From positions 153,019-217,018 of the forward strand of contig NZ_JAJQQP010000009.1 in NCBI RefSeq assembly GCF_028994805.1: a stretch of 64,000 nt of DNA, written 5' to 3'. The DNA is from Promicromonospora iranensis (GTDB taxonomy: Bacteria; Actinomycetota; Actinomycetes; Actinomycetales; Cellulomonadaceae). The position numbers and the translations under genes were made by a program. Shown one piece after another: positions 19,406 to 22,675 of this stretch; position 1 is the stretch's first letter, and every line of letters starts with the position of its first letter. The notes beneath the pieces were generated by a model, which worked only from the letters and a program-made list of their open reading frames with translations, was not told where the DNA came from and did no database searches.

Positions 19406-21088
19406 ATGTTGTCCAACCCTTCCGTCGTGCTGCACGACGTCACTTTCGCCTGGCCCGACGGCGCCGTCGCGCTCGACCACGTCTCCGGCGCGTTCGGCCG
19501 CGGCCGCACCGGCCTGACCGGCCTCAACGGCGCGGGCAAGTCGACCCTGCTGCGCCTGGTCGCCGGCCTGCTCACGCCGACGTCGGGCAAGGTCACGCTG
19601 AGCGGGACCGCGGACTACCTGCCGCAACGGATCACCCTCGACGTCGATGCCACGGTCGCTGACCTGCTCGGCATCTCGCCGGTCGTGCGTGCGCTGCGCG
19701 CCATCGAGTCGGGAGACGTCGACCCCGGGCACTTCGACGTCGTCGGCGACGACTGGGACGTCGAGGAGCGCGCGGTGGCCCTGCTCTCCGCCACCGGCCT
19801 GCCCACCGGGCTCGACCGCTCGGTCGCGACGCTGTCCGGCGGCGAGACGGTGCTGACCGCGATCACCGGCGTCCGGCTGCGTCAGTCGAGCGGCAGTGCC
19901 TCGGTCGCCCTGCTCGACGAGCCGACCAACAACCTCGACGGCGATGCCCGCGAGCGCCTCTACGAGCTGGTGCGGGGCTGGCGGGGCGCGCTCGTCGTCG
20001 TCTCGCACGACCTGGCGCTGCTGGAGCTGATGGACGAGACGGCGGAGCTGCGCGGGGGCTCGTTGACCACGTTCGGTGGCCCGTACTCGCAGTACCGGGA
20101 GTGGCTCGAGGTGCAGCAGGAGGCTGCCGCGCAGGCCTTGCGCTCGGCGGAGCAGACGCTGCGCCGGGAGAAGCGGCAGCGGATCGAGGCCGAGGAACGG
20201 ATCGCGCACAGCGAGCGCAAGGGCCGCAAGGACGCTGCGAACAGCAAGTACGTCAAGGCGGTGATCAACGACCGCCGCAACAGCGCGGAGAAGTCGGCGG
20301 GGGCGCGGCGCGGGATGCTGGACGACAAGGTCGGGGCCGCGCGGGCGGCGGTCGACCAGGCGGAGCGTGCGGTGCGGGACGACGACCGGATCTCCGTGGA
20401 CCTGCCGGACCCGGGGGTGCCCGCCGGGCGGCGGCTGGCGGTGCTGCGTGGGGCGGACGGCCGGGAGATCGTGCTCCAGGGTCCGGAGAGGATCGCACTG
20501 ACGGGCCCGAACGGCGTCGGCAAGACGACCCTGCTGGAACGCCTCCTGTCCGCCCCCCACCCCACCTCCCCGTTGAGTGCTGGGTATGTGCGCGACGAAA
20601 CCGATTCCGCTCGACAGATAGCCAGCACTCAACGGGGTGGGGCGTCGGGGGAGCTGCTGACCGATCGCGTCGCGTACCTGCCGCAGCGGGTGGACGTGCT
20701 GCCGGACGACTCCCCGGTGCTGGAGGCCGTGCGGGCGGGTGCGCCGCACGTGCCGCCAGGGGAGCTGCGCAACCGGCTGGCGCGGTTCCTGGTGCGGGGC
20801 GCCGCGGTGGACCGGCCGGTCGCGACGCTGTCGGGCGGCGAGCGGTTCCGGGTGGCGCTGGCCAGGCTGCTGCTGGCCGACCCGCCGGCGCAGCTGCTGG
20901 TGCTGGACGAGCCGACGAACAACCTCGACATCGCGAGCACCGACCAGCTCGTCGCCGCGCTGTCGGCGTACCGGGGTGCGCTGCTGGTGGTGAGTCACGA
21001 CACGGCGTTCCTGGACCGGCTGGGCCTGGACGCGGAGATCCGGCTGGACGCGGAGGGGAACCTGACGGAGGCGCGGCGCTCCTCATGA
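19406..21088 (+). CDS. ABC-F family ATPase with an in-frame palindromic insertion
   Basis: A 560-residue soluble protein with two nucleotide-binding domains and no membrane helices. Domain 1 has Walker A LNGAGKSTLL near residue 38, signature TLSGGETVL near 140 and Walker B VALLDEPTNNLD. A charged helical linker spans about 230-330. Domain 2 has Walker A GPNGVGKTTLL near 368, TLSGGERFR near 474 and LLVLDEPTNNLD. ABC-F proteins act on the ribosome in translation or antibiotic resistance. Residues about 388-411, between Walker A and the Q-loop of domain 2, are encoded by a hairpin element with codons rare here (ATA, CGA, TTG, TAT), so this loop is unusually long. Both catalytic glutamates are intact. 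Confidence 0.9.
   Translation: MLSNPSVVLHDVTFAWPDGAVALDHVSGAFGRGRTGLTGLNGAGKSTLLRLVAGLLTPTSGKVTLSGTADYLPQRITLDVDATVADLLGISPVVRALRAIESGDVDPGHFDVVGDDWDVEERAVALLSATGLPTGLDRSVATLSGGETVLTAITGVRLRQSSGSASVALLDEPTNNLDGDARERLYELVRGWRGALVVVSHDLALLELMDETAELRGGSLTTFGGPYSQYREWLEVQQEAAAQALRSAEQTLRREKRQRIEAEERIAHSERKGRKDAANSKYVKAVINDRRNSAEKSAGARRGMLDDKVGAARAAVDQAERAVRDDDRISVDLPDPGVPAGRRLAVLRGADGREIVLQGPERIALTGPNGVGKTTLLERLLSAPHPTSPLSAGYVRDETDSARQIASTQRGGASGELLTDRVAYLPQRVDVLPDDSPVLEAVRAGAPHVPPGELRNRLARFLVRGAAVDRPVATLSGGERFRVALARLLLADPPAQLLVLDEPTNNLDIASTDQLVAALSAYRGALLVVSHDTAFLDRLGLDAEIRLDAEGNLTEARRSS
20568..20637. repeat. Palindromic element inserted inside the ABC-F gene
   Basis: Perfect 16-bp inverted repeats (ccccgttgagtgctgg at 20568-20583 and its complement at 20622-20637) enclose a 38-nt loop that is itself partly self-complementary. 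Its GC content and codons differ from the surrounding gene. The form suggests a REP/MITE-like mobile palindrome. No second copy was noticed in the window. Confidence 0.7.
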
Positions 21089-21236: not shown

Positions 21237-22568
21237 ATGCAAGCACGTCTACGGCGCCGTGCGTTCAGTGGCCTCGCGGTCCTGTCCATGGCTCTCGTCA
21301 CCGCGTTGGCGGTGGGCGGCGGCGCCCTGCCCGCCCGTGCCGCGACGGGAACCATCACCGGATACGGCGGCAAGTGCGTCGACGTCGCCGCGGCGAACAC
21401 CGCGAACGGTACGCAGGTGCAGCTCTACGGCTGCAACGGCACGAACGCCCAGAGCTGGGACGTGCGGAGCGACGGCACCGTCCGCGCCCTGGGCAAGTGC
21501 CTCGACGCGGCGGGCGGCAGCTCCGCCAACGGCACCCGCGTGCAGCTCTGGGACTGCAACGGCACCGCCGCGCAGCGCTGGACCGCCGGTGCGGACGGCA
21601 CGCTCCGGGCACTCGGCACGTGCCTCGACGCGACGGGGCCGAGCTCGGCCGACGGCACGCCCCTGCAGCTGTGGGACTGCACGGCCGGGGCAGCGAACCA
21701 GCGCTGGACGCTCCCGTCCGGCGGCGGCAACCCGGACAACCCGGCGAAGATGCCGGGCGCGCCCTACCTGTACCTGGGCTGGGGCAACCCGCCGAGCGCC
21801 ACGTCGGTCATGAGCCAGACGGGCATCCGCGCGTTCACTATGGCCTTCATCCTGTCGTCCGGCGGCTGCAACCCCGCGTGGGACGGCAGCCGTCCGCTGA
21901 CCGGTGGCGTCGACCAGCAGACCATCAACGCGATCAAGGCGGCCGGGGGACAGGTACAGATCTCGTTCGGCGGCTGGTCCGGCAACAAGCTCGGCCCCAG
22001 CTGCTCGACGCCCGCCGCGTACGCGGGTGCCGTGCAGCAGGTCATCAACGCCCACCAGCCGGACGTCGTCGACTTCGACATCGAGAACTCCGACGAGTTC
22101 GAGAACTACACGGTCCAGGACCGCATCCTGCGAGGGCTGATCATCGTCAAGCAGAACAACCCGAACGTGCGGATCGCCGTCACGATCGGCACCGGCCACA
22201 GCGGCCCCACCGGTGCGGGGACCCGCCTCATCAACCGGGCCGCCGAGCTCGGGGTGCCGATCGACAACTACACGATCATGCCGTTCAACTTCGGCTCATC
22301 GAACATCGCACAGGACACGGTCAATGCGTCCGAGGGCCTGAAGGACCAGCTCAAGGCGGCCAACGGCTGGACGGATGCCCAGGCGTACGCCCACATGGGC
22401 ATCTCCGGCATGAACGGCAGCTCCGACCAGGGTGAGGTCACCACCACGGCCGCCTGGACGCAGATCCGCGACTACGCGCGGAGCAACGGGCTCACGCGGC
22501 TCGCGTTCTGGTCCGTCAACCGGGACCAGCCCGGGTTCGAGTTCACCCGCATCACGGCGGGATTCTGA
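21237..22568 (+). CDS. Secreted lectin-chitinase (CBM13 plus GH18)
   Basis: A 443-residue secreted enzyme. The Sec signal peptide covers residues 1-36, ending PARAA after an RLRRR start. Residues about 37-160 are a ricin-type CBM13 lectin with three repeats, each with a Cys-Leu-Asp block (GKCVDV, GKCLDA, GTCLDA) and a QxW ending. After a Gly-rich linker the GH18 domain begins YLYLGWGNPPSA; the catalytic motif DxxDxDxE appears as VDFDIE near residue 280, with the glutamate as acid/base. It should bind and hydrolyse chitin outside the cell. GAGGGAGG precedes the ATG. The gene ends just before a very long hairpin shared with its convergent neighbour. Confidence 0.92.
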   Translation: MQARLRRRAFSGLAVLSMALVTALAVGGGALPARAATGTITGYGGKCVDVAAANTANGTQVQLYGCNGTNAQSWDVRSDGTVRALGKCLDAAGGSSANGTRVQLWDCNGTAAQRWTAGADGTLRALGTCLDATGPSSADGTPLQLWDCTAGAANQRWTLPSGGGNPDNPAKMPGAPYLYLGWGNPPSATSVMSQTGIRAFTMAFILSSGGCNPAWDGSRPLTGGVDQQTINAIKAAGGQVQISFGGWSGNKLGPSCSTPAAYAGAVQQVINAHQPDVVDFDIENSDEFENYTVQDRILRGLIIVKQNNPNVRIAVTIGTGHSGPTGAGTRLINRAAELGVPIDNYTIMPFNFGSSNIAQDTVNASEGLKDQLKAANGWTDAQAYAHMGISGMNGSSDQGEVTTTAAWTQIRDYARSNGLTRLAFWSVNRDQPGFEFTRITAGF

Positions 22569-22606
22569 CGCGCGGCACTACGGCAGGAGCTGGGCTGACC
22601 TGCTGA

Positions 22607-22675
22607 CCCTTTTCGAGGTCGAGGTTGCTCCGCTCTGAAGCGTTTCAGAGCGGAGCAACCTCGACCTCGAAAGGG
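22607..22675. terminator. Very long hairpin between convergent genes
   Basis: A 29-bp perfect stem (22611-22639 with 22644-22672) closed by a GCGT loop, extended by three more pairs beyond a one-base bulge. It lies between the chitinase and DUF6314 stops and includes the last codons of DUF6314, so it probably terminates transcription from both sides. Confidence 0.8.

Follow-up and report, generated by a model that had tools for sequence, protein, structure and literature searches.

The question raised by this locus is how the coding end of a gene came to lie within a long, perfect hairpin, and what such a hairpin does there. In the window, the 64-kb stretch of DNA that was analyzed, a perfect 29-bp palindrome occupies positions 22611-22672, with arms at 22611-22639 and 22644-22672 that are complementary at 29 of 29 pairs, and a 4-nt loop, GCGT, at 22640-22643. 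Extended to 22608-22675, the palindrome gains one mismatched and two further paired positions. The original prediction had described a 29-bp perfect hairpin at 22607-22675 containing the last eight codons and the stop of the DUF6314 gene; the 29/29 pairing at 22611-22672 and the reading of the minus-strand arm, given below, bear out both statements. It is confirmed that the 29-bp stem across the DUF6314 end far exceeds chance expectation. The runner-up among perfect stems in the window is 14 bp, and the maximum in ten first-order Markov shuffles of the window is 12 bp. The RNA folding z-scores of the hairpin are -10.4 and -10.9 on the two strands, and equal fold stability was reached in 0 of 200 shuffles on either strand. 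The neighboring gene, which carries a ricin-B-lectin domain (Pfam; 21237-22568, plus strand), is convergent to DUF6314. Its stop lies 42 nt from the same hairpin, and its mRNA would run into it.

Judged by its sequence, the hairpin belongs to a dispersed palindromic repeat of Promicromonospora that resembles REP and RPE elements and that we call family A. When it was used as a DNA query against the window's own genome (5.84 Mb in 31 contigs), 45 strand matches were found, at 23 places. The covariance model, derived from 24 gap-free aligned copies with the window copy among them, gave 59 strand matches, corresponding to about 30 places if both strands match at each. Family A is about 60-68 bp long with near-perfect 28-bp arms; in the 24 aligned copies the arms are near TTCGAGGTCTAAGTTTCTCCGCTCTGAA and the loop is NCGN. 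Pairing in the flanks beyond the 28-bp core shows a weak excess (mean 1.71 versus 1.11 positions, with 5 of 200 shuffles as high). The plain DNA search found family A in 9 of the 13 Promicromonospora genomes and in none of 46 genomes outside the genus. The covariance model found it in 11 of the 13, with 150 first-look candidates scored per genome, so that the highest counts are to be read as at least 150. The repeat consensus of each species was taken from top-scoring model hits and is biased to well-paired copies. Other long palindrome families are also present in the window's genome.

From this dispersal, family A appears to have been mobile. Judged by DUF6314, P. iranensis is the closest named relative (87%), and four places in the window's genome have no orthologous copy there. 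Three of these are chance-level matches (9 mismatches) and one is a real copy (L021 13131). It is the only family A copy absent between matching P. iranensis flanks, and those flanks lie 1.6 kb further apart.

At the DUF6314 locus the repeat is read as protein. The DUF6314 coding sequence (PF19834; 22645-23094, minus strand, predicted start 23094), recognized from a Pfam match and gene prediction, ends within the palindrome. The Pfam match stops at residue 141 of 150, and the tail encoded by the arm covers residues 143-150. Read on the minus strand, the arm consists of the codons F E V E V A P L (22671-22648), that is, the last eight codons of the gene (22648-22671, minus strand), then the stop TGA beside the loop (22645-22647, minus strand), and one flanking base per side. 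Translated in the frame of DUF6314, the family A consensus gives FEV-stop-VSPL-stop. Its first in-frame stop, TAA, is the sense codon GAG in the window and AAG in P. iranensis, and the resulting tail in the two is FEV[E/K]V[A/S]PL followed by a stop.

The distribution of this tail follows that of the repeat. In 26 of the 40 retrieved DUF6314 loci, compared together with the window, the protein core ends near TRYSRP. An FEV/PFE-type tail follows it in only three loci, in each of which a family A hairpin, or an A-like one, covers the stop: the window (PFEVEVAPL), P. iranensis (PFEVKVSPL) and P. thailandica, which has the sister version LPFETEVASLSAL. In P. thailandica the species' own repeat sub-family, defined from four copies in a genome (G011) assigned by its identical DUF6314 end, overlaps the stop. 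None of the 24 other DUF6314 loci, which have no family A or A-like element at the stop, carries a PFE-type tail. This alignment of C-termini had been proposed with the original prediction, which would have been contradicted by a tail conserved in DUF6314 proteins that have no hairpin; the outcome favors the prediction, with a PFE tail in 3 of 3 loci with an A or A-like element and in 0 of 24 others. The consensus frame and the tail distribution therefore identify the DUF6314 tail as the repeat read in frame. The predicted DUF6314 frame is thus shown to enter one arm, to take its codons as an eight-residue tail, and to take its TGA as the stop.

A local inverted duplication of the DUF6314 3′ end, the first of the two origins offered by the original prediction, would also produce a perfect stem with one coding arm. 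Both arms, however, match family members dispersed elsewhere in the genome, and none of the 24 DUF6314 loci that have no family A or A-like element at the stop has the tail. We regard such a duplication as hardly credible, and the dispersed arm copies contradict it as the source of the hairpin; the idea that it had created a terminator is therefore abandoned. The second proposed origin, a terminator recruited as coding sequence, stands in part: a dispersed 3′-end palindrome has been recruited, and its role as a terminator is a prediction from position.

Elsewhere in the genus the DUF6314 end looks different. P. panici has a different palindrome and a different tail. In P. sukumoe, P. kroppenstedtii and strains AC04 and MEB111, a palindrome of another family lies 3′ of the stop, and in P. 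citrea yet another one begins at the stop. The only stem in P. umidemergens is weak (score 10), and stem scores in three Myceligenerans loci do not exceed 8. Between the hairpin and the lectin gene, P. iranensis has about 1.3 kb of extra DNA (window 22570-22611 compared with L100). This stretch opens with DNA that is also found 3′ of DUF6314 in P. umidemergens, P. thailandica and P. panici; the window genome lacks this DNA, and one breakpoint lies close to the hairpin.

Coding capture is also seen in a second palindrome family, family D, a separate element but a related phenomenon. One copy lies in frame at 20568-20637 (plus strand) within an ABC ATPase gene (19406-21088; Pfam ABC_tran), which we take to be of the ABC-F type, and encodes about SPLSAGYVRDETDSARQIASTQRGG. 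Six of the 13 genus genomes have this insert, and a seventh retains a remnant of it. The peptide pattern LSAGYVR...STQRGG is common to the ATPase insert and to a second protein, of the DNA polymerase III alpha type and encoded elsewhere in the genome (Pfam DNA_pol3_alpha and PHP), presumably DnaE2, in which a family D palindrome lies in frame within the PHP domain (L017:13458-13515, on G000 contig C12). The polymerase insert is whole in four, half in one and absent in seven of the 13 genomes, and one locus is unreadable. A pattern search in 822 kb of this genome yielded 14 family D copies, of which two are inside genes and five supply the TGA of the neighboring predicted gene. In these five the outermost TGA is the gene stop (L012:1394, L014:11900, L023:8069, L115:8490 and L119:8824; Pfam MarR, kynureninase, acyltransferase, GH43 and IclR). 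A further palindrome family, GCGAGGTAGTCA, occurs at L018:10118-10216, L121:14091-14166 and L034 and has GTAG inside; several direct repeats per arm give it very long nested stems.

Such behavior has precedents. REP elements have been described as lying at 3′ ends, in some cases at the ends of coding sequences, as donating stop codons, and as inserting into genes, dnaE2 among them (PMC3733652). Gene-end placement, stop-codon donation and coding capture are, on the strength of that account, already known from REP and RPE elements (PMC3733652). Family A shares with REPs its dispersal as a palindrome in many copies (23 places in the DNA search, about 30 with the covariance model) and its placement after stop codons, in convergent or co-directional gaps. 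Conversely, it is longer (about 60-68 bp, against the 20-40 bp given for GTAG- and CGTC-tagged REPs by Di Nocera et al. 2013), has near-perfect arms, and belongs to an actinobacterial genus; the words "Actinobacteria" and "Streptomyces" are absent from the main text of that paper (PMC3733652). Among 48 flanks, namely the 10 nt that border the 28-bp core to either side in 24 family A copies, one has the REP tag GTAG and one has CGTC; of the reverse complements, CTAC is in none and GACG in one. A search for the RAYT transposase domain (Y1_Tnp, PF01797) at E<=0.001 found none in the 13 Promicromonospora genomes, and the control search was positive in 5 of 14 named genomes. A RAYT-driven REP is rejected for the lack of Y1_Tnp in the 13 genomes and of tags. 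We therefore term family A REP-like rather than REP, because position and dispersal fit but tags and RAYT are missing.

Rickettsia palindromic elements (RPE; Ogata et al.) are described as palindromes with readable frames inside unrelated proteins (PMC2229807, PMC10969869), with lengths of 105-146 bp (PMC2229807). Compared with these descriptions, family D is RPE-like, being in frame within the ABC ATPase and the DNA polymerase III alpha-type protein, whereas family A is coding only as a C-terminal tail with its stop and comes from a shorter, more perfect hairpin. As candidate target-site duplications of the MITE kind, direct repeats of at least 4 nt lie at 2 of 24 family A copies, against a mean of 1.0 with shuffled partners, which is not a clear excess. 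The window has no match to 4227 Rfam models at gathering score. In the open PMC literature, whose coverage takes in few subscription papers, we found no description of these Promicromonospora repeats. What is new here is the clade, the lack of RAYT and tags, the near-perfect 28-bp arms with mirrored changes and loop inversions, and the turnover of families. With these observations, the known range of REP/RPE-like palindromes at gene ends, and of their capture as coding sequence, comes to include an actinobacterial genus that yielded neither a RAYT nor a REP tag.

The position of such hairpins relative to genes was surveyed in 822 kb of the window's own genome, most of it in regions picked for holding family A copies. 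Gene positions came from our own gene caller trained on this sequence (735 genes, 90% coding), and the stem finder tolerates small loops and a few mismatches. The 82 stems scoring at least 15 comprise 37 in tandem gaps, 36 in convergent gaps, 4 inside genes, 3 at region edges and 2 in divergent gaps; nine of the 82 overlap a stop codon, as do 2 of 23 classified family A stems. Expressed per gap, a stem of at least 15 is present in 34 of the 128 convergent gaps, in 36 of the 258 tandem ones and in 2 of the 119 divergent ones. At a score of at least 18, one of 53 stems is divergent. Similar stems at convergent gene pairs, for which the original prediction had proposed a search, are present: at scores of at least 20, convergent gaps hold 27 of 48 stems, tandem gaps 19, divergent gaps none, and one stem each lies inside a gene and at a region edge. 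Relative to intergenic base counts, the 46 gap stems of this class are enriched in convergent gaps (27 versus 7.9 expected, p=3e-10) and depleted in divergent gaps (0 versus 13.6 expected, p=1e-7). In tandem gaps, 20 of the 23 stems scoring at least 18 are nearer to the upstream stop, with a median of 14 nt to it and 79 nt to the next start. Such hairpins thus cluster 3′ of stop codons, prefer convergent gaps and shun divergent ones. One palindrome (L020:5021-5068) covers the stop codons of both convergent predicted genes.

The density of stems scoring at least 20 was also recorded outside these regions. Fifteen further stretches of the window genome's contig C1 hold 13 in 298 kb, or 4.4 per 100 kb. 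Nine other Promicromonospora loci have 9.4 per 100 kb, a figure from 84.9 kb that all lies around DUF6314, itself a hairpin site. Three Myceligenerans loci give 3.4 per 100 kb, from one stem. In 15 Nocardioides-type loci the value is 1.4 per 100 kb, and 14 loci, mostly of Rhodobacterales, have no such stem.

The hairpin spans the DUF6314 3′ end between two convergent genes. Once transcribed, it would act on both mRNAs as a bidirectional 3′-end structure, and its role may be to form or protect their 3′ ends. The placement, the conservation of the hairpin and its service to two convergent genes together suggest an RNA 3′-end role. We propose that the element is probably a REP-like hairpin, transcribed at both mRNA 3′ ends and captured as DUF6314 coding sequence. 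Within this proposal, the predicted RNA 3′-end function has about an even chance of being correct, and we are far more confident of the repeat identity and the coding capture, as read from the sequence.

If the hairpin does act on RNA, the manner of its action is constrained by its flanks. A classical intrinsic (Rho-independent) bidirectional terminator, with no tie to repeats, would account for a very stable hairpin on both strands between convergent genes. However, no T-run of at least 4 follows any of 44 family A stem ends, so that no U-tract is present, and the hairpin is a member of a repeat family; we therefore consider a classical terminator unlikely. The mean T content next to family A stems is 0.93 in 9 nt, versus 1.46 in intergenic 9-mers. 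Because there is no U-tract, the classical form is less likely than a U-less "I-shaped" terminator, or than a structure that blocks exonucleases once Rho has ended transcription. In the Term-seq study of S. clavuligerus, 353 of 535 highly structured 3′ ends are reported without a U-tract; in the authors' view these may be I-shaped terminators or may mark where Rho-terminated RNAs end (PMC8269248). As far as that account goes, those ends resemble the present one in their stable GC-rich stem, short loop and location at gene ends of a high-GC actinobacterium (PMC8269248). In contrast, they were mapped by Term-seq, and the Promicromonospora hairpin is known from sequence alone and is a member of a repeat family.

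A long conserved palindrome in many copies could instead be the DNA site of a nucleoid, replication or segregation protein, the hairpin being incidental palindromy. The sequences nevertheless differ among species and sites while the palindrome stays, the placement tracks gene ends, and 28-bp arms with a 4-nt loop would exceed what a dimer site needs. A protein site is accordingly a very unlikely explanation.

A selfish or neutral palindrome would persist 3′ of stops simply where it does least harm, with no RNA 3′-end role. We consider this somewhat unlikely, although several observations agree with it. Dispersed copies are restricted to the genus among the genomes searched, palindromes lie within genes and over stop codons, some orthologous gene ends have no palindrome, and changes in one arm are common. 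Against the 3′-end role, moreover, the avoidance of promoters could merely reflect selection against harmful insertions. Orthologous ends are often without a detected stem (7 of 13 at hisD, and only 3 of 13 stems scoring at least 15 at the LigD-like gene), and one-arm changes outnumber mirrored ones in the comparison with P. iranensis. Conversely, the enrichment in convergent gaps, where a hairpin would serve two genes, argues against a selfish or neutral palindrome, and mirrored orthologous changes and covariation suggest that the hairpin is kept, although template switching could do likewise.

The arms themselves bear on this point. In the 24-copy alignment, changes on both sides occur in 23 cells versus 12.5 in shuffles, which ignore relatedness, and 0 of 500 shuffles is as high. 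At the uxaC end, counted in five of 13 species chosen for a comparable stem, 7 of 28 columns are perfectly mirrored, 4 are changed in one arm and 1 in both arms with some unpaired; left out of this count were G000 (an indel), G005 (an 8-nt loop), three species with another palindrome and three with none detected. At the mqo end, in six of 13 species chosen in the same way, 10 of 25 columns are mirrored, 1 is one-arm and 2 are changed in both arms with some unpaired. Between the window's genome and P. iranensis, 18 orthologous copies give 504 columns, of which 419 are the same, 66 one-arm, 9 mirrored and 10 other. One indel-shifted row (L021 6779) contributes 16 one-arm, 5 mirrored and 2 other columns to these totals; without it, the 476 columns divide into 414 same, 50 one-arm, 4 mirrored and 8 other. 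Since one-arm changes are frequent, arm pairing is not tightly enforced.

The loops and two single copies add further details. In the same 18 pairs, the loop is scored as unchanged in ten, as an exact inversion in three and as other in five; one of these five (L021 6779) in fact reads GCGT in both species. The three inversions are also visible in single spanning alignments. In the window copy, all three departures from the 28-base consensus arm are mirrored, including the two that give GAG at the consensus TAA, and the uxaC-end copy of the window's genome has a one-base insertion in both arms. The mirrored departures, the loop inversions and the double insertion at uxaC may be taken as signs of an arm-rewriting process. 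Template switching between inverted repeats is reported to yield both mirrored arms and spacer inversion (PMC8794818, PMC8604942), and paired change arising from hairpin selection has been reported for terminators (PMC5381666). The arms could thus stay alike through hairpin selection, through template switching between arms, or through both. As a tentative reading, template switching or a similar process that copies arms and inverts hairpins may rewrite these elements and carry changes of the non-coding arm over into the coding one, in which case the DUF6314 C-terminus would have been written by a mirror process at the DNA level and not by ordinary point mutation. The inverted repeats homogenized by template switching share with ours the mirrored arm changes and exact loop inversions (PMC8794818, PMC8604942). 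Those studies, as far as they bear on this point, concern RNA genes and yeast coding genes, whereas here it is a bacterial repeat whose arm encodes a protein end.

The turnover of hairpins was followed at orthologous gene ends across the 13 genus genomes. Besides DUF6314 (orthologues in 12), these were the ends of five neighbor genes of family A copies, which we take to be hisD, LigD-like, uxaC, mqo (13 each) and maoC (12; ten loci were compared at this end, L193-L196 being excluded at 43-50% identity as not clear orthologues). The 3′ ends of the six genes carry family A, another palindrome, or none detected. The stopping rule of this survey was stricter and missed the P. citrea and P. panici palindromes found in the DUF6314 comparison. 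At the hisD stop the stem finder detects a stem in 6 of 13 genomes and none in 7, and it missed palindromes that are visible by eye in the alignment. G008 and G004 have a palindrome of another family with a large loop, G001 has a partial one, and G007 has an A-like palindrome; none is seen in G006, G010 and G011. The hisD alignment has no clean empty sites, the intergenic sequence being too diverged. A stem of at least 10 follows the mqo stop in 13 of 13 rows; six species share one palindrome, and the others have different or shorter ones.

In a broader form of the arm-rewriting reading, several palindrome families may conceivably replace each other at the same gene ends as interchangeable 3′-end parts. 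Several families coexist here, orthologous gene ends can be traced through 13 genomes, and mirrored mutations can be looked for in the two arms. The genus offers a natural test of how long near-perfect hairpins arise and persist, and of how U-less hairpins act at gene ends in high-GC bacteria. Two observations were made alongside this comparison. At the P. iranensis place orthologous to a family B palindrome (L010:18144-18181), an unrelated palindrome is found. The LigD-like gene of G001 (G001:C1:1456524-1457616; L154, L155) matches in two overlapping pieces, which suggests a frame break.
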